DNA of 64,000 bases from positions 1 to 64,000 of the IMG/VR virus record IMGVR_UViG_3300043607_000009; one strand, written 5' to 3'. The translations under genes and the position numbers were made by a program. A model generated the notes under the pieces. It was not told where the DNA came from and did no database searches. It was given only the letters and a program-made list of their open reading frames with translations. The stretch is from a virus. Below are positions 1,096 through 9,700 of this stretch, piece by piece. Each line of letters begins with the position of its first letter. The first letter of the stretch is position 1.

Positions 1096-1547
1096 TGGTC
1101 CGCGCACGCTACAAGGTCGATGCGAGTCCGCTCTTCCGCGCGATGAAGCGCGCGATCCGCAACGAAGTTGCCGAGCCCTTCTTCCGGATCGGGCCGTTCC
1201 AATTCACGTGGTGGGAATCGGCGCGCATGCGCGAGGGCGGGCGCATCCGCAAGGTGCCGATGATCCACGTCGCGTATCAAGGCAAGTACGTAGGCCGCAT
1301 CGAAGCCGATCGCTACCTCGCCGGTCCGAACGTATTCGACACCAAGGAGGCACGGCGCGAAGTCGCCGAGCAGATCAAGTTGATTGTCACGCACCCGCGG
1401 AAAGCGGCGGCAGCGGAAGCCGCAGTTACGCTCAAGGCGAGCGGCTCTCCGCGGTGTGCGTGTTGTGGCCGGCCGCTCGCTGGCGTCGAGGATCGACGCA
1501 GCGGCGTCGGCATGATGTGCTCGCGCAAGTGGGGTTTCGCAAGATGA
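1095..1547 (+). CDS. Zinc-binding hypothetical protein, 150 aa
   Basis: The start overlaps the previous stop (TAATG) and the stop TGA overlaps the following ATG (ATGA). The body (WWESARMREGGRIRKVPMIH; VAYQGKYVGRIEADRYL) is hydrophilic. The carboxyl end carries a treble-clef-like motif: CACCGRPL, then about 13 residues, then GVGMMC. Small phage proteins of the DUF6011 type carry the same CxxCGRxL..GxGxxC pattern. A structural zinc site is therefore likely, but no enzymatic role can be given. Confidence 0.7.
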   Translation: MVRARYKVDASPLFRAMKRAIRNEVAEPFFRIGPFQFTWWESARMREGGRIRKVPMIHVAYQGKYVGRIEADRYLAGPNVFDTKEARREVAEQIKLIVTHPRKAAAAEAAVTLKASGSPRCACCGRPLAGVEDRRSGVGMMCSRKWGFAR

Positions 1548-1696
1548 CCGAGCGTTGGCGCGTAATCCGAGGTTACGACTATGAGGTATCTGATCTCGGG
1601 CGCATTCGACATCATGTTACGAAACATGTCATATCCGATTTCGAGGGCATGTGCTCATGCTTGTTCAGTGGGCACAACTGCGAAGAATTAGCGTAG
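1544..1696 (+). pseudogene. NUMOD4 fragment of an HNH homing endonuclease
   Basis: ATG 1544 overlaps the preceding TGA. The first 20 residues (ERWRVIRGYDYEVSDLGRIR) match the NUMOD4 DNA-binding module found at the amino end of phage HNH homing endonucleases; the intact gene at 29878-30372 has the same module. The reading frame stops after 50 residues and no HNH catalytic region follows, so this is a truncated relic. It lies just upstream of the tRNA-like gene and the intein-bearing polymerase. Confidence 0.7.
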
Positions 1697-1953: not shown

Positions 1954-4900
1954 GTGGGGAGCCTCAACCCGCACTGCCAGAAGTGCCCGCTACACGAGAC
2001 TAGCGACATCGTATGCCTTGCTGGCGAAGGTCGGCGCGGCGCCGAGGTCATGTTCGTTGGCGAAGCGCCCGGTGCGGAAGAAGAACGCGAAGAGCGACCG
2101 TTCGTCGGGCCGTCCGGCCGGCTGCTCCGTGATCAACTCAAACGCGCCGGCATCAAAGACGTGTTCATCACGAACACGGTCCGTTGCGTCGTGGGATCAA
2201 CGGCGGTAAGTTTTCCATCGCCCCCCACGGTAGGGTACAAACGCTATTACCAGGGCCTTCTCTTGACGATCAAGACGGCCTCGGGCAACGAGCTGGCCGT
2301 CACACCGAATCACCCGATACTCACGGCGCGTGGATGGGTTCGCGCTGAGGAGTTGCGCGGTCGAGATGACTACGTTCACTGCTTCGGGCGTAACTCTGGT
2401 ACAACGATTCAGCCACAAGTAGACGACCGCCCACTTCTCGCGGAGCAAGTATTCAGTACGCTTGCGCTTAGAAGCAGCTCGTGCCGGGTTGTTGGTCATC
2501 AAATGGATTTCCACGGCGACGGAACCGATCGCGAAGTCGAGATTGTAAGGGCCGACAGCGCATTGTTCTCGGAACACGACTTTTCTCTTGCGCAGTTCAG
2601 AAGCGAACCAACGATCAGTAGCTCCTTGTTTGCCCCTCGTCTGTTCGGCCGTTATTGCGCTAGTCTGCGCTCGTTTTTTGATCGCCTCAGGGCTCCACAG
2701 CCGTCGATTAGCATAGGCAGCTTGGCGCGCTGGCTCCGAGAGGGCCACACGTTCTTCAGTCGTGAGCTTGCTCCAATATTTTTTCAGAGTGCGCCCTGTA
2801 TCTGCGACCAAAGCAGCATCATGGTAGCTGCGGGCGTTGTAGCCGGCAGCCTTCAATCTAGCGGCAACAGTTCCATCACTAACCCCGAGAGCAACGGCGA
2901 TCTGGCAGAAAGATTCTCCGCGCTTAAAGCGCCCGACCAAATCATCGAGATCCAATCGCAGTTTTGGGCGGGCCATGTCTACAACTTCTCAACGCCGGGG
3001 GGGTGGTACATCTCGAACGGTATTATAACGCACAACTGCCGGCCACCGAGCAACCGACAACCGACTGCGACCGAGATCTCCGCGTGTCGTGGCTACCTCG
3101 CGGATGAGATCAAGCGTGTCAAGCCCAAGTATGTTGTGGCGCTTGGCGCAGTAGCCGCGAAGACGCTCTTCGTTGGCAAGTCCAAGGTCACGCAACACCA
3201 CGGCGCCTTCGTGGAGCCCACTGACAAGCACCCCTACCGCGGCTACGTCGCTTACCATCCTGCCTTCACGCTGCGCGACCCTAGCAAGTTGCCGGCGTTC
3301 ACTCAGGATCTAAAGCGATTGGCCCGTGCGGTCCACGGTGAAGAGCGAGCTCCCGAGGCGCCGTGGTCCCTACTGCGGCGCGGCAACCTGCGGAAGTTTC
3401 TGCGCGAGTTCATCGAAGCCCCGGAGTTCTCGTTCGACCTCGAGACCTCGGGCTACTTCATGCACGGGCCAGGCGGCTACATCAACGCGATGTCGATCGA
3501 CCTCCCGCACCGCACGTGGGTCGTGCCGTGCATGGACTACGATCCAATCAACAAGCGGCACAAGCACACTCCGTGGCGCCGCGGGAACGCCTTCCTCGAG
3601 CTCGTGAAGCTGTTGGTCAAGATCCAACGTGAGACTGCAAAGCGCTGCGTTGGCCACAACGGCAAGTTCGACAACCTCTGGCTCCGCCGTCTGACTGGCT
3701 TCTGGTTCAAGCTCACGTTCGACACGATGCTTGCGAGTCACACGCTGGACGAGAATCGCGAGCACGATCTCAAAACGCTCGCGCGCACCATCCTCGACGC
3801 GCCCGAGTACGACCTCACGCCAAAAGAGAAGAAGGGAATAGTTGTACCGCGCAAGCTCTACCGCTACGGCGCTTACGACGCCTATTACACGCGCAAGCTC
3901 AAGGAGATCTTCTACCGCGAGCTCCAAGACGAACCGGAGCTCCACCGGCTGTATCACAAGCTGATCATCCGCGTCGCGCGCTCGATGGAGAACCTCGAGA
4001 TGGTCGGCAAGACCGTGAATCTCGAGAAGTGGGACGCCACCACGATCGACGTGCAGTCCGAAGTCATCTTGCTCGAGATCGAGCTCAACAAGATGGTAGG
4101 AAAGACCATTAACTGGAATTCGCCGCCGCAGATCGGCCGGCTCTTGTTCGATGAGCTCGGACTCGAGGTCACGCAGTGGACCGACGGAGGGGCTCCGTCC
4201 ACGAGCGAAGAAGCGCTCTTCGATCTGCGCGACGAACACCCCGTCGTGAACAAGCTGCTCGAGTACCGCGAGCGCACCAAGTTCTTGGGCACATACCTGC
4301 ACGGTCTGCGCGAGTATATGGTGGGGCAAACGCTCTACATCCCCTACAAGATCCACGGCACGGTCGGCGGCCGCTACAGTTCGCCAATTCATTCGATTCC
4401 ACGCGACGGCACCATTCGCAACCTCGTCGAAGCACCGGACGGTTGGGATCTCTTCGTGGCCGACATCTCACAGGCGGAGCTCCGCTTCGCTGCACACTTG
4501 TCCGGCGATCTCGAGATGCGTCGCTGCTTCAAGAACAATATCGACATCCACTGGCGCACGCTCATGTACACGCTCGGCCAAGGCTACATCGGCACCGAAG
4601 AGTACGTGGATAACGTGTGGGGCACGGTGAAAGCTCTCGGCAAGCGTGTCAACTCTATCGGCGATGCGTGCGAGGTCTTGCTGCTCGCCGGCCACGATCG
4701 CTGCACCGAGATTTGGAAGGGCTGGAAGGAAGGTCGCTACCGCGCCAAGGCGCTGAACTTTGGGTTTTGCATCGCAGAAGGGCAACGTGTACTGACTCAC
4801 GTTGGTCTAGTACCAATCGAACAAGTGCAGGACTGGCACCTTGTATGGGATGGCGTAGAGTGGGTATCCCATAAAGGAGTTCAATTTAATGGCTACCAAG

Positions 4901-6102
4901 AAGTCATCGAATATCAAGGGCTCAAAGCAACCCCAGAACACGAAGTCTGGACGATGGGGGGGCAGAGGCTTCCCCTTTGGAGAGCGGCATCCGAAGGCCA
5001 TAGACTTGAGAAAACGGGAGCGGGACTTACAGCGTTTCCCTCTAGGGACACTAGTCGTTTTAGTGGGAACGATTCGTCGCGTCGAGAGATCGCGGTTAGT
5101 GATCGACGTTACTTGCACAGCATGCGAGAAACGACAGACGCTTCTCGTAGACAATTTATGGGCGAAGAAGACAACCAACTGTCGCTGTCAAAGAGCCAAG
5201 AAATACTTCGATCCTCGATCCGAAACTCTTGGAATGCGCTACGACACCATGATTCAGCGCTGCGAACGCGATACGCACGTTTCATCGAATCGCTACAAAG
5301 GGCGCGGAATCCAAGTGCTCTTCAAATCGCGAGAGGAGTTTATCCGTTGGGCGTTGAAGAAGTACCCCAACAGCGATTTCAAAGAATTGGTTTTCGATCG
5401 ACGGAACAACGACGGGAATTACTCCAAGGGCAATCTTCGCCTGACAACCTACAGCGTCAACAATCGAAACAGATTAAGGTCTACGATCTAATCGACGCGG
5501 GGCCACGTCACCGTTTCACAGTAGAAGACTGTCTCGTACACAACTGCTACGGGATGTTTGAAGACAAGTTCATCGAGCTTGCCAAGACCGACTACGAGTG
5601 GGAGCCCTCATGGGACGAAGCGCACTCGATGCGCCAAGGCTTCTTCGATCTCTACAGCGGACTCCCCAAGTGGCACGACAAAGAGAAGAAGATCGTGCGC
5701 AATAACGGCTTCGCACGGATCTTGTCGGGGCGTCGGCGCCGGCTGCCGGCGATCTACTCCAAGGAGAAGTGGATACGCGCAGAAGCCGAGCGCCAAGCGG
5801 TCAACATCCGCGTGCAGGGATTCATCGGCGACTACAAGTCCATGGCGCTCGTCGAAGCGGACGATCGGCTGAATCCGCACGAAGCGAAGCTCGTCGGCGA
5901 ACACCACGACGCGCTCCTCGGGATCGTGCGCAAGGACTGCCACGATGTGGTGCTGCCAGTGGTGCGCCAGATCATGAAGGCCCCCGCGCTGCTCCGCGCG
6001 TTCAACATCAAGCTCGACATCCCCATGAATTCGGACATCGAGCTCGGACGATGGGGCGCAGGCGTCAAATATCAAGACCCAGAACAAAGGAGAGCTGCGT
6101 GA
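1954..6102 (+). CDS. Uracil-DNA glycosylase / 3'-5' exonuclease / family A DNA polymerase with two inteins
   Basis: The 1,382-residue precursor splices to about 839 residues. Residues 1-77 and 362-460 form a family 4-like uracil-DNA glycosylase (CQKCPLH cysteines, GEAPGAEEE, PFVGPSGRLL, TNTVR joined to CRPPSNRQPT, HPAF). Residues ~490-620 are a DnaQ-like exonuclease (FDLET, GHNGKFDN). The polymerase domain has motif A (DISQAELR, ~836), motif B (RAKALNFGF, split by intein 2) and motif C (EHHDAL, ~1317). Inteins occupy residues 78-361 and 939-1197. It is presumably the replicative polymerase, and the fused glycosylase suggests that uracil in DNA is recognised during replication. The start is GTG 1954. 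The gene ends in a GTGA overlap with the next one. Confidence 0.92.
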   Translation: MGSLNPHCQKCPLHETSDIVCLAGEGRRGAEVMFVGEAPGAEEEREERPFVGPSGRLLRDQLKRAGIKDVFITNTVRCVVGSTAVSFPSPPTVGYKRYYQGLLLTIKTASGNELAVTPNHPILTARGWVRAEELRGRDDYVHCFGRNSGTTIQPQVDDRPLLAEQVFSTLALRSSSCRVVGHQMDFHGDGTDREVEIVRADSALFSEHDFSLAQFRSEPTISSSLFAPRLFGRYCASLRSFFDRLRAPQPSISIGSLARWLREGHTFFSRELAPIFFQSAPCICDQSSIMVAAGVVAGSLQSSGNSSITNPESNGDLAERFSALKAPDQIIEIQSQFWAGHVYNFSTPGGWYISNGIITHNCRPPSNRQPTATEISACRGYLADEIKRVKPKYVVALGAVAAKTLFVGKSKVTQHHGAFVEPTDKHPYRGYVAYHPAFTLRDPSKLPAFTQDLKRLARAVHGEERAPEAPWSLLRRGNLRKFLREFIEAPEFSFDLETSGYFMHGPGGYINAMSIDLPHRTWVVPCMDYDPINKRHKHTPWRRGNAFLELVKLLVKIQRETAKRCVGHNGKFDNLWLRRLTGFWFKLTFDTMLASHTLDENREHDLKTLARTILDAPEYDLTPKEKKGIVVPRKLYRYGAYDAYYTRKLKEIFYRELQDEPELHRLYHKLIIRVARSMENLEMVGKTVNLEKWDATTIDVQSEVILLEIELNKMVGKTINWNSPPQIGRLLFDELGLEVTQWTDGGAPSTSEEALFDLRDEHPVVNKLLEYRERTKFLGTYLHGLREYMVGQTLYIPYKIHGTVGGRYSSPIHSIPRDGTIRNLVEAPDGWDLFVADISQAELRFAAHLSGDLEMRRCFKNNIDIHWRTLMYTLGQGYIGTEEYVDNVWGTVKALGKRVNSIGDACEVLLLAGHDRCTEIWKGWKEGRYRAKALNFGFCIAEGQRVLTHVGLVPIEQVQDWHLVWDGVEWVSHKGVQFNGYQEVIEYQGLKATPEHEVWTMGGQRLPLWRAASEGHRLEKTGAGLTAFPSRDTSRFSGNDSSRREIAVSDRRYLHSMRETTDASRRQFMGEEDNQLSLSKSQEILRSSIRNSWNALRHHDSALRTRYARFIESLQRARNPSALQIARGVYPLGVEEVPQQRFQRIGFRSTEQRRELLQGQSSPDNLQRQQSKQIKVYDLIDAGPRHRFTVEDCLVHNCYGMFEDKFIELAKTDYEWEPSWDEAHSMRQGFFDLYSGLPKWHDKEKKIVRNNGFARILSGRRRRLPAIYSKEKWIRAEAERQAVNIRVQGFIGDYKSMALVEADDRLNPHEAKLVGEHHDALLGIVRKDCHDVVLPVVRQIMKAPALLRAFNIKLDIPMNSDIELGRWGAGVKYQDPEQRRAA
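2185..3036 (+). other. Intein 1, in the glycosylase domain, with an antisense endonuclease gene
   Basis: The 284-residue insertion interrupts the glycosylase motif exactly between TNTVR and CRPPSNR. Block A is CVVGSTAV, block B GNELAVTPNHPILTARGWV, block F GHVYNFST and block G NGIITHN followed by Cys, as in standard Cys1/Asn/Cys+1 inteins. Between the splicing halves (about 2400-2915) the intein frame encodes no LAGLIDADG or HNH motif; instead, the complementary strand there encodes an endonuclease-like protein (2197-2976). The host frame remains open throughout. The codon boundaries of the two strands coincide. Confidence 0.9.
2197..2976 (-). CDS. EDxHD/Vsr-like homing endonuclease nested antisense in intein 1
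   Basis: This 259-residue protein reads opposite to the polymerase. Residues ~8-45 form a helix-turn-helix (DDLVGRFKRGESFCQIAVAL, GVSDGTVAARLKAAG). Residues ~115-190 resemble the PD-(D/E)XK fold of Vsr-like EDxHD homing endonucleases (FREQCAVGPYNLDFAI, VAVEIH, a basic helix, then WAVVYLWLNR). That family was described as free-standing genes lying between the halves of split-intein genes. Here the gene lies wholly within one intein, and its last ~60 codons are complementary to intein blocks A and B, so the true functional end may be earlier. The ribosome binding site is weak (GAGAAG upstream of the ATG at 2976). The protein is likely real; its activity is untested. Confidence 0.75.
   Translation of the reverse strand: MARPKLRLDLDDLVGRFKRGESFCQIAVALGVSDGTVAARLKAAGYNARSYHDAALVADTGRTLKKYWSKLTTEERVALSEPARQAAYANRRLWSPEAIKKRAQTSAITAEQTRGKQGATDRWFASELRKRKVVFREQCAVGPYNLDFAIGSVAVEIHLMTNNPARAASKRKRTEYLLREKWAVVYLWLNRCTRVTPEAVNVVISTAQLLSANPSTRREYRVIRCDGQLVARGRLDRQEKALVIAFVPYRGGRWKTYRR
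4768..5544 (+). other. Intein 2, in polymerase motif B, with an out-of-frame endonuclease gene
   Basis: The 259-residue intein begins at Cys (CIAEGQRVLT, block A) directly after NFGF of polymerase motif B. Block B is LKATPEHEVWTMGG, block F IKVYDLIDAGPRHRF and block G EDCLVHN followed by Cys (CYGM). Motif B is essential, so the polymerase needs splicing to be active. The middle (~4960-5470) has no endonuclease motif in the intein frame, but the +1 frame of the same strand encodes an HNH-type endonuclease (4889-5491) with its own ribosome binding site. The intein frame has no stop through this stretch. Confidence 0.9.
4889..5491 (+). CDS. HNH-type homing endonuclease nested in the +1 frame of intein 2
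   Basis: The 200-residue protein starts at ATG 4889 behind a strong site, AAGGAG (4874-4879), 9 nt upstream, so it can be translated independently of the polymerase. It has a Cys-rich region (CTACEKR, NCRCQR) followed by the conserved core of a phage HNH-like family (RYDTMIQRCERD, YKGRGIQVLFKSREEFIRW, FDRRNNDGNYSKGNLRL). The same core occurs at 42064-42582 and 60069-60758. It lies entirely inside the intein DNA and shares it in another frame. It presumably mobilises the intein. Confidence 0.82.
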   Translation: MATKKSSNIKGSKQPQNTKSGRWGGRGFPFGERHPKAIDLRKRERDLQRFPLGTLVVLVGTIRRVERSRLVIDVTCTACEKRQTLLVDNLWAKKTTNCRCQRAKKYFDPRSETLGMRYDTMIQRCERDTHVSSNRYKGRGIQVLFKSREEFIRWALKKYPNSDFKELVFDRRNNDGNYSKGNLRLTTYSVNNRNRLRSTI

Positions 6103-6380
6103 GAGTCAATCTATACAGAGAAGAAATTACCGACCGCATGAAGATCGTGCGCAAAAGTACCGAAGCTGGCGACTTCATTGGCGTGCGCCTCTTCATCGAA
6201 ACCCCCGTGACACTTCACAACAAGCCGCAAGCAACGCAGATTGTGCGCGGGCCATACATGCGCACTGACGGGGATGACGATTCAAGCGCCGTGACCTTCT
6301 GGGCACTCGCGTCTGATACTCGAAAGCTCCGTGAGATGTTCTACAAGGCATGGAAGCTCCTCGAAGAAGAAGGCGCGTGA
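6099..6380 (+). CDS. Hypothetical protein, 93 aa
   Basis: GTG 6099 overlaps the polymerase stop (GTGA), which suggests coupling. AAAGGAGAGC lies just upstream. The protein (VNLYREEITDRMKIVRKS; TFWALASDTRKLREMFYKAW) has mixed strands and a helical carboxyl end. I do not recognise a family. Its coupling to the polymerase hints at an accessory role in replication, which is only inference. Confidence 0.65.
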   Translation: MRVNLYREEITDRMKIVRKSTEAGDFIGVRLFIETPVTLHNKPQATQIVRGPYMRTDGDDDSSAVTFWALASDTRKLREMFYKAWKLLEEEGA

Positions 6381-6381
6381 C

Positions 6382-6858
6382 TTGGGGTTTCCACGAACCG
6401 GAGCATGCGTAGATTGTTCGTCTTCTATACGACAGACATGCGGACGGCACCTGTACTGCGTCAAGTGCAAGTACAAGCGCCGGCTCAGAGCTCAATGGCG
6501 TTGGCGAGTCAGAACTGGTTCTATCAAAGACCCAACGAGGGGCGAGCCGCGCAAGAATCCGAAGAACTACCGCGGGGCGAAGAACCCCAACTGGCGTGGC
6601 GGCGGCATAGACTGGCAGCAACGACAGTTCAGAAAGAAGCGCTGCGATCGTTGCAAAAGTAAAAAGAAATTAGAGCTTCATCACAAAGACCGAAACCGAA
6701 GCAACTGGAAACCGAGTAACTTGGAGACGCTCTGCGAGAGTTGTCATCGTGACGAGCATCTCCCGTCCCGAGTCAAAGCAATCAAAAGTGCTGCTTCTCG
6801 AGGGCGCTACAGGAAAAACCTATGGCTGAACGCAATCACACATCTCAAAGCGAGATAA
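6382..6858 (+). CDS. HNH endonuclease (group I homing type)
   Basis: The protein has two amino-terminal cysteine pairs (CVDC, CVKC) and a classic HNH core: CDRCKSKKKLELHHKDRNRS, then WKPSNLETLCESCHRDEHLP. This is the family's metal-binding Cys2/His-His-Asn arrangement. The start is uncertain: TTG 6382, immediately after the previous stop, is used here; the frame is also open upstream inside the previous gene. The 3' end overlaps the next gene by 37 nt. Base composition is lower in GC than in the neighbours, as expected of a mobile insertion. Confidence 0.75.
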   Translation: MGFPRTGACVDCSSSIRQTCGRHLYCVKCKYKRRLRAQWRWRVRTGSIKDPTRGEPRKNPKNYRGAKNPNWRGGGIDWQQRQFRKKRCDRCKSKKKLELHHKDRNRSNWKPSNLETLCESCHRDEHLPSRVKAIKSAASRGRYRKNLWLNAITHLKAR

Positions 6859-8034: not shown

Positions 8035-8858
8035 AAAAAATCATCCGCAAAAAAGAAACGACCAAGCTCCCGCGCGTCGTGCGCAACATCTCCGACGTGG
8101 ACGACTTGAGTGAGAACCACGTGGCGCTCTTCTACGGTAAAGCCGGCCGCGGTAAGACCAAGACGGCCGCGTCGTATCCGAAGCCACTCTTGCTCCTCGA
8201 CATCAACAACGAGCGCGGCACCAAGACGGTGAAGACCGTGAAAGGGCTACGGATCGCACGCATCACGACGTGGGATGACTTCATCGACCTCTACTGGTGG
8301 CTGCGCGAGGGCCAGGACTACAAGTCCGTCGTACTTGATCAGATCACCGGCCTCCAAGATCTCGGCATGACCATGATCCGCGACAAGCACGGCAAGAGCG
8401 ACGACGACCTATTCACGCAGAAGAATTGGGGTGAGCTCTCCGGCGAGCTCAAGACGTGGCTCCAAAACTACCGCGAGCTCTCGGACCGCTACAACATCGT
8501 GTTCCTCGCGCACGAGCGGATCTTCGACGAAGACCAAGATGCCGAAGCTAGTGATCTTTCCCCGTCCGTCGGCGCGCGCGTGATGCCGAGCGTTGGCTCC
8601 TTCATCGACGGCGCCTGCGACATCATCGGCCAGAGCTTCGTGCACATGCGCAAAATCAAAGAGGGCGGCAAGACCGTGCACGATCCGCAATACTGCATGC
8701 GCATCGGACCGCACCCGAGTTACATCACCAAGATCAGGCGCCCGCCCGAAGCGGGGCCGCTCCCGCAATATATCGTCAACCCTTCCTACCAAAAGCTAGT
8801 TGCCATCGAGAATGGTGAGGAAGCATCTCAACCCTCGAAGCTGAAAAGGAGAAAGTAA
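8031..8858 (+). CDS. Sak4-like / AAA_24 recombination ATPase
   Basis: This is a 275-residue RecA-fold ATPase. It shows Walker A GKAGRGKTKT (residues ~38-47), a Walker B-like strand (YKSVVLDQITGL) and NIVFLAHERI. Phage AAA_24 proteins of this size include Sak4, which promotes single-strand annealing together with a DUF669-type ssDNA-binding partner. The partner candidate follows immediately (TAATG overlap). The start ATG 8031 is chosen over an upstream ATG because it overlaps the previous stop. Confidence 0.85.
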   Translation: MKKIIRKKETTKLPRVVRNISDVDDLSENHVALFYGKAGRGKTKTAASYPKPLLLLDINNERGTKTVKTVKGLRIARITTWDDFIDLYWWLREGQDYKSVVLDQITGLQDLGMTMIRDKHGKSDDDLFTQKNWGELSGELKTWLQNYRELSDRYNIVFLAHERIFDEDQDAEASDLSPSVGARVMPSVGSFIDGACDIIGQSFVHMRKIKEGGKTVHDPQYCMRIGPHPSYITKIRRPPEAGPLPQYIVNPSYQKLVAIENGEEASQPSKLKRRK

Positions 8859-9700
8859 TGGCAGTTCAGTCCCGCAGATCTTCAACCAAGAAGACGAGCA
8901 AACGCCGCGCGTCTCGATCGGTGGACTTCACCGATGTCGAGAGCGGTGGTCGAACCATCACCGATGGTTGGGCACGCGGCCGCGTCAAGGCCGCAGTCTG
9001 GAAGGAGTCGCAGTCGTCGGACAACGAGATGATCGAAGTCCAGTGGATGGCAGAGCGTGGCAAGGAGAAGGCGACCGTGTACGACAACATGGTCAACACG
9101 CCAAGTGCGCTGTGGAAGATGAAGACCATGCTCGAGGCGTGTGGCATCGAAGTGCCCGAAGGCGCGATGGATGTCGATGCCGGTGAGCTCGTCGATCTCG
9201 AGTGCGACATCGAAATCGTGAACGAAGAGTTCGACAACCGCGATCGGCCGCGGATCGTCGGCTTTGCCGAGACCGGCACGCACACCGAGGATGGCGGCTC
9301 GCCCAAGGAAGGCGCCGAAGACCCCGAGGCTGAGGAAGAGGAAGAGGCTCCGAAGCGCAAGCGCAAGACCTCCGAGAAGGAGGAGGAAGAGGAGGAGCCG
9401 GAAGAAGAGCCCGAAGAAGAGGAAGAAGAGGAGGAGAAACCTTCCCGCTCCAAGAAGCGTCGGACCCCCAAGGAAGAGGAGGAAGAAGAGCCGGAAGAAG
9501 AGGAAGAGGAGGAAGAAGAGGAGGAGGCGCCCAAAAAGAAAACCAAGTCCAAGATCCGCGCGGGCGCGAAGGTGAGTTTTCGCGATGGAAAAAAGACGCT
9601 CCGCGGCGTCGTCAAGTCGATCGAAGACGATCAAGTGCTCGTCGTGATGCCGAACAAGGACGAGTACGAGATGTCTTCAGAAGAGGTAACGTTGGCTTAA
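8858..9700 (+). CDS. DUF669-like ssDNA-binding protein with long acidic linker
   Basis: The 280-residue protein starts in a TAATG overlap with the Sak4-like gene. Residues ~25-140 (DGWARGRVKAAVWKESQSSD, TPSALWKMKTMLEACGIEVP) match the pattern of DUF669 proteins, phage ssDNA-binding partners of Sak4-like ATPases. Residues ~150-225 are an extreme low-complexity stretch of Glu with Lys/Pro, encoded by purine-only runs of GAAGAGGAGG type. Residues ~230-280 form a small beta domain resembling KOW/SH3 (AGAKVSFRDGKKTLRGVV). Acidic tails of SSBs commonly bind partners; this one is unusually long. Confidence 0.7.
   Translation: MAVQSRRSSTKKTSKRRASRSVDFTDVESGGRTITDGWARGRVKAAVWKESQSSDNEMIEVQWMAERGKEKATVYDNMVNTPSALWKMKTMLEACGIEVPEGAMDVDAGELVDLECDIEIVNEEFDNRDRPRIVGFAETGTHTEDGGSPKEGAEDPEAEEEEEAPKRKRKTSEKEEEEEEPEEEPEEEEEEEEKPSRSKKRRTPKEEEEEEPEEEEEEEEEEEAPKKKTKSKIRAGAKVSFRDGKKTLRGVVKSIEDDQVLVVMPNKDEYEMSSEEVTLA

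Follow-up and report, generated by a model that had tools for sequence, protein, structure and literature searches.

A viral intein that very likely encodes its homing endonuclease on its own complementary strand

EDxHD endonuclease genes are known from fractured genes (Dassa et al. 2009, as cited in PMC12350094 and in the review PMC3943268). The element described here was found in a viral DNA polymerase gene within the window, a stretch of 64,000 nucleotides (positions 1 to 64,000 of the IMG/VR record IMGVR_UViG_3300043607_000009, a virus contig of 64,682 bases). It resembles the EDxHD/Vsr-like homing endonucleases, such as I-Bth0305I (PDB entry: 3r3p), in its nuclease fold, its phage setting, its association with an intein and the presence of an N-terminal DNA-binding part. 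The EDxHD systems are described as separate, non-overlapping genes or intron ORFs, whereas in the window a contiguous intein has the endonuclease gene on its opposite strand, with shared codon boundaries. The residues of the motif differ too: throughout the antisense family the third acidic position is always E156, and the His varies. With the classical homing inteins of the LAGLIDADG or HNH type, the element shares the Hint domain, a nuclease coded between the N- and C-terminal splicing blocks, insertion at conserved motifs and the existence of empty-site alleles. In those inteins, however, nuclease and splicing domain are normally made as one polypeptide, encoded in frame on the sense strand, whereas in the window family the nuclease is a separate protein of the opposite strand with its own start codon, Shine-Dalgarno (SD) sequence and promoter-like box.

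Overlapping endonuclease genes have been described in other settings. The ShiLan domain is an out-of-frame, hidden HNH endonuclease in the insertion of a phage methylase (Arsenault et al. 2025, PMC11855218). It is similar in that a phage endonuclease overlaps an open, in-frame insertion and is overlooked since the host frame stays open, but it is encoded on the same strand in another frame, it belongs to the HNH family, and the insertion is reportedly not an intein (PMC11855218). Antisense homing endonuclease genes also exist in nuclear group I introns (PMC9548176), where the endonuclease is likewise encoded opposite the interrupted gene, inside a self-splicing element. The group I intron is, however, an RNA element whose sense strand need not code for protein, and therefore no double coding in codon register is needed. 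For the nuclease domain, the best sequence matches in Pfam and the PDB are the DUF559/MTES_1575 proteins (PDB entry: 3hrl), but they are not described as homing enzymes, and those records have no helix-turn-helix (HTH) or intein association. Within the limits of the open-access literature searched, none of these nearest published systems unites an intein and an antisense endonuclease that share their register. Inteins harboring an endonuclease gene on the opposite strand were not reported in this literature, most subscription papers and the defining EDxHD papers being outside the scope of the search.

The intein and the gene on its opposite strand

The translated host gene (Table 1) matches the Pfam families UDG (3e-26), DNA_pol_A (4e-53) and DNA_pol_A_exo1 (3e-12). 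Intein 1 of this gene is a complete intein of 284 residues. It meets the sequence criteria of a Hint intein, having nucleophiles at positions 1 and +1, the TxxH and HN motifs and a precise insertion, and it is matched by the profiles Intein_splicing (E 5e-7) and intein_Nterm (2.7e-5). In the AF2 model the splicing domain has pLDDT values above 90, and its comparison with solved inteins by Foldseek gives a probability of 1.0. The boundary of the intein agrees with the junction ITNVVK^CRPPGNR of an intein-less UDG-polymerase, which reads ITNVVKCRPPGNR over the insertion junction of the window. That splicing is autocatalytic is inferred. Residues 125-240 of the sense product are predicted to be disordered (pLDDT about 30-45), and the segment 81-122 is modeled with moderate confidence. 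A fractured gene with a split intein is ruled out, the host gene being one continuous ORF.

Table 1. Window coordinates of the host gene, intein 1 and the antisense gene with its putative expression signals.
Feature	Position	Strand	Description or basis
Host gene	1954-6102	+	family-4 UDG / 3'-5' exonuclease / PolA polymerase fusion, 1382 codons, two inteins
Intein 1	2185-3036	+	284 codons, open, in frame with the host gene
Intein 1, C1	at 2185	+	
Intein 1, block B TPNH (T40-H43)	2302-2313	+	
Intein 1, C-terminal His-Asn (H283-N284)	3031-3036	+	Cys+1 next
Antisense endonuclease gene	2197-2976	-	259 residues and stop, codon register shared with the host gene
HTH, residues 10-43	2848-2949	-	weak matches in the window protein; relatives; model
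Vsr-like/DUF559-like nuclease domain, residues 119-224	2305-2622	-	conserved residues, fold match to 3r3p
Nuclease residue Y144	2545-2547	-	
Nuclease residue D147	2536-2538	-	
Nuclease residue E156	2509-2511	-	
Antisense start codon ATG	2974-2976	-	complement of block F His264 (GHVYN)
SD-like GAGAAG	2985-2990	-	8 nt before the antisense start
-10 box TATAAT	3022-3027	-	in block G codons, about 50 nt upstream of the start

The antisense gene is in register with the host gene, as (2197-1954)/3 = 243/3 = 81, and its C-terminus opposes the intein blocks A and B. The antisense frame itself has no TTA, CTA or TCA codon. When the expected number of antisense stops is computed from the sense amino acids and the codon usage of the exteins, 4.6 stops are expected for the window copy (P of none 0.008) and 18-21 for AT-richer relatives, where none is observed either (P 5e-12 to 8e-10). 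The share of TTA, CTA and TCA among the Leu/Ser codons is 0.7% in the endonuclease span, compared with 11.9% in the exteins, and of the 121 complete inteins only three have the antisense frame interrupted by a stop ahead of residue 190.

The assignment of the nuclease and HTH domains rests on the family, because the Pfam matches of the window protein itself (DUF559 and HTH) are sub-threshold; its match to the NCBIfam DUF559 model (4e-6) is also far under the cut-off of that model. A profile made from 50 relatives matches the PDB entries 3hrl (DUF559, 1.5e-6) and 3r3p (I-Bth0305I, 7.8e-6), and 26 and 21 of these 50 family members match REase_MTES_1575 and HTH_23, respectively. HTH matches in relatives reach 1.3e-8 (HTH_23) and 7e-10 (HTH_38), and one or two HTH units are frequent among them. 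The AF2 model of the window protein (mean pLDDT 83.6) has the corresponding helices at residues 10-18, 23-30 and 34-43, and its top Foldseek match is 3r3p, with a probability of 0.99 and a modest E-value of 6.5e-3. D147 and E156 are conserved in all 121 relatives and Y144 in 119. At the first acidic position, 114 of the 121 have a glutamate, and the window copy has D121. A His at position 158 is present in just 22 of the 121 relatives; the window copy has it. At the family level, profiles and structure comparison thus show that the antisense protein has an I-Bth0305I/DUF559/Vsr-like nuclease fold together with an HTH, as also predicted by the model of the window protein; cleavage activity is inferred.

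This is in agreement with most of an earlier note made from sequence alone. The proposed 852-nucleotide intein with splicing blocks at both ends is confirmed by the blocks and by the two intein profiles. The claims that both strands use the same codon boundaries, that the endonuclease gene lacks TTA, CTA and TCA (in the window copy) and that the antisense tail is complementary to blocks A and B hold as well. The complementary-strand protein of 259 residues with an HTH and a Vsr-like nuclease is supported through the family profile and the fold, the HMM search with the window protein alone remaining below threshold. The EDxHD label holds in part, as E and D are present, His is variable and the full motif is unconfirmed.

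Selection on the two strands and the putative antisense expression signals

In frames that share their register, position 1 of the sense codon is position 3 of the antisense codon. In the splicing blocks, the changes at sense positions 1 and 3 number 117 and 231, whereas in the middle of the intein 286 changes fall at sense position 1 (antisense position 3) and 142 at sense position 3. This contrast between blocks and middle is highly significant (Fisher p = 2e-20, 13 independent pairs); the flanking extein control gives 14/7/116. Clearly, selection acts on the sense frame in the splicing blocks and on the antisense frame in the middle, and purifying selection on the antisense frame is also seen between close relatives. 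The codon-level selection check proposed in the earlier note has therefore been made, and in it the middle segment evolves as the antisense protein.

The sense strand of the catalytic core encodes a conserved motif, DFHGDG..EVEIV, which is exactly complementary to the antisense core YNLDF..VAVE. In this segment (sense residues 96-130), changes that are silent in the sense frame and alter the antisense protein are as rare (rate 0.071) as changes that alter both (0.065), and therefore the sense motif is largely a shadow of the antisense core. Changes that are silent in the antisense frame and alter the sense product are about three times commoner (0.196). The constraint on sense third bases is highest opposite Y144 (2.66 bits) and N145 (2.18 bits) of the antisense protein.

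The block F His, whose codon opposes the antisense start, is present in 96 of 121 relatives and is encoded by CAT, giving ATG on the other strand, in 86 of these 96, when 36 are expected (p 4e-26). Most relatives have GGAGGT at the SD position, the GAGAAG of the window being weaker, and a typical sequence at the antisense SD and start is GGAGGTCGTACACATG. Pairing with the anti-SD exceeds that of synonymous-codon shuffles (p 1.6e-10), compared with p 0.88 for the control at the block B His. At the -10 box with its TGn, the third codon positions are constrained with z values of 12.9, 11.1 and 6.6 (observed counts of 58, 50 and 48 versus 14.8, 14.4 and 22.4 expected, in 101 representatives with less than 75% identity). 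The third-base signal is flat on the extein side, and the control codon position -6 has some third-base bias too (z 4.1). The box is not universal, being matched at five or more of its six positions in 43 of the 101 representatives. An extended TGn element precedes it in many relatives; the window copy, whose TATAAT is perfect, has CGn instead. A generic sigma-70 promoter scan of the window region flagged no promoter, and the -10 signal emerged only from the family-wide synonymous-shuffle test. The start codon, the SD sequence and the promoter-like box are conserved beyond what the sense amino acids require; that the antisense gene is expressed is inferred. As far as promoter function can be inferred from such conservation, the element seems to have an extended -10 promoter of its own, independent of the host gene.

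Distribution, free-standing copies and mobility

The antisense-endonuclease intein is a widespread family and not a one-off. By tblastn, the antisense protein has matches in 112 phage records (132 when E-values up to 1 are admitted), and the intein query returns an overlapping set of records on the opposite strand. At most of the listed matches, the gene annotated there is a minor head, MuF or head-morphogenesis gene. Annotated loci are found in phages of Gordonia, Mycobacterium, Rhodococcus, Pseudomonas, Salmonella, Escherichia, Klebsiella, Vibrio, Aggregatibacter (Aaphi23), Idiomarinaceae and Edwardsiella, and in an uncultured virus. A nuclease-core pattern retrieves 45 IMG/VR loci, 43 of which have an intein on the opposite strand. 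When loci are sampled by block B only, which was chosen to remove the bias of sampling through the nuclease core, an antisense homologue is present in 80 of the 80 retained loci, these being the best-scoring of 408. The register is 0 at every intein locus in both sets. The earlier note had suggested that one contiguous DNA segment serves as intein linker and as opposite-strand endonuclease, and this is supported, the arrangement proving to be a widespread family with its own signals. According to the same note, this reading would be refuted by a lack of homologues or by homologues interrupted in the antisense frame while the intein persists; the former did not occur, as homologues antisense to inteins exist in over 100 phage records, and the latter is limited to the three interrupted copies mentioned above.

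The scan of genome contigs added only two further members (L072 and L074) and one unrelated protein (L073), and single-protein scans of viral contigs (with P0001, P0003 and polymerase extein queries) were unproductive. Two local observations concern family members. One gene (L032/L033) has two intein/antisense-endonuclease elements, at 2081-2878 and 3020-3814, with about 140 bases between them. In the Salmonella phage vB_StyS-sam (L006, 1697-2098, plus strand), an annotated hypothetical protein that overlaps the head morphogenesis gene corresponds to a fragment of the antisense gene.

The endonuclease also exists as a separate gene without intein, in Acinetobacter phage P1068 and in IMG/VR sequences (L042/L043). 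The free-standing copies at L019 1321-2214 and L042/L043 1988-2821 are convergent with, and touch the 3' end of, intein-less minor head genes. The nuclease core is kept in these intein-less copies, and the Acinetobacter copy has 12 TTA, CTA and TCA codons, an unrestricted use as expected because the sense constraint is gone. The free-standing copies show that the enzyme stands on its own as a protein, and they suggest a route by which gene and intein joined or parted, the direction being unresolved.

Intein-less alleles are common in close relatives: 133 of 161 Guernseyvirinae records and 60 of 80 Gordonia records match a joined empty-site probe at a single place across 80% or more of the probe. 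Between the Gordonia phages Vivi2 and Keitabear the exteins are 95.3% identical and the inteins at the same site only 58.5%, and between the Escherichia phages Snoke and KMB36 (91.5%) the inteins are at different sites. The element resides in host genes of at least five families: MuF, Phage_min_cap2, UDG (the window and L152), RtcB and dCMP deaminase. The distances between splicing domains and between endonucleases are correlated (Mantel r 0.60). The exact-site presence and absence in near-identical genes and the spread over several genes are a hallmark of homing.

Full-length, same-register antisense overlaps with evidence of selection on both strands are few. The present family adds about a hundred diverged cases, in each of which one strand would encode an enzyme and its complement a protein that splices itself, providing a natural system for the origin and upkeep of double coding, with the free-standing enzyme copies as controls. 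In the annotated phage records examined, the nucleases are hidden beneath minor head protein annotations. Gene callers thus overlook a mobile nuclease that is common, and counts of endonuclease-free inteins may be wrong, antisense nucleases being missed.

Alternative readings, the proposed mechanism and neighboring genes

The antisense gene could be a real but inactive relic, kept open only by the limits that the sense frame sets on its decay, with homing in the past. The D121 and weaker signals of the window copy and the few interrupted frames are in favor of this, and decay is a regular phase of the homing cycle. The relic is nevertheless very unlikely, given the purifying selection on the antisense frame between close relatives, the full conservation of the catalytic D and E, and the recent presence/absence and replacement of the element at 95% extein identity. 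There is equally little support for a nuclease or DNA-binding protein that has another job, such as regulation, exclusion of rival phages or repair, and that is not the homing enzyme of the intein. The fold does resemble DUF559 and Vsr repair-type proteins too, and free-standing copies adjoin intein-less minor head genes. However, the strict linkage to the intein, the exact-site presence/absence alleles and the jumps between host genes are predictions of homing, and the correlated distances noted above also argue against a separate role, as does the absence of a PADLOC match, by which a defence system is ruled out within that search.

The antisense similarity could also be the mirror image of a conserved sense motif. 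The conservation of DFHGDG..EVEIV, its exact complementarity to the antisense core and the moderate AF2 confidence of the sense segment 81-122 are compatible with this, but the four-class substitution rates, the third-base constraint maxima opposite Y144 and N145 and the retention of the core in intein-less, free-standing copies leave practically no room for it. That the antisense ORF is open merely by chance, in a GC-rich gene of the kind in which long antisense frames are frequent (several of similar length exist in the window), is excluded almost beyond doubt by the missing stops, the invariant catalytic D and E, the substitutions that track antisense codons and the free-standing homologues.

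The element is therefore very likely a mobile intein with its homing endonuclease encoded on its own complementary strand. The family, the register, the strand-switched selection, the conservation of the signals, the empty-site alleles and the several host genes are shown; antisense transcription, cleavage, splicing and homing are inferred. In the proposed mechanism, the ends of the segment, read on the host-gene strand, would form the Hint splicing domain, and the middle would be tolerated as a largely disordered linker and removed upon splicing. Read on the opposite strand with the same codon boundaries, the segment would give a DNA-binding HTH and a Vsr-like nuclease. The C-terminal splicing blocks would hold the antisense extended -10 promoter, the ribosome-binding site and the start codon, such that the element would take its own expression signals to any landing site. 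The nuclease may then cleave the insertion site in alleles that lack the intein, and repair would copy the intein and the endonuclease in together. In this way an intein can carry a nuclease outside the precursor protein, with its own expression signals. It is possible that the window copy itself is weak or decaying, as D121 in place of E, the weaker SD sequence and the absence of TGn speak against its activity.

A bolder reading, which is likely though less firmly supported, is that these inteins are a distinct class of homing elements in phages of very different hosts, in which the splicing blocks carry the complete expression module of the endonuclease and the gene runs on the opposite strand in register. 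If this is true, a single DNA duplex is read in two ways, for protein splicing and for DNA homing, and the separation of the strands could permit an early nuclease and a late host structural gene.

Other endonuclease-like sequences are present near the locus. Intein 2, at window positions 4768-5544 (plus strand) in the polymerase domain, has an HNH ORF at 4889-5491 on the same strand, out of frame, which matches phrog_374 (8.5e-20). Relatives of this HNH protein are encoded out of frame in the DNA polymerase genes of Salmonella phage EnJE6 (L156) and Caulobacter phage GB2A (L157), at differing offsets. Just 3' of the polymerase gene, the ORF 6331-6858 (plus strand) has, as judged by eye, an HNH-like motif, LELHHKDRNRSNWKPSNLETLCESCHRDEH, and would be the third putative endonuclease within about 5 kb. 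A short frame at about 1543-1696 (plus strand), MTERWRVIRGYDYEVSDLGRIRHH, resembles by eye the NUMOD4 start of a truncated homing endonuclease gene. Further downstream, window positions 8858-9700 (plus strand) encode a protein with a very long, Glu-rich repeat tail, and the opposite strand is open there in two frames.
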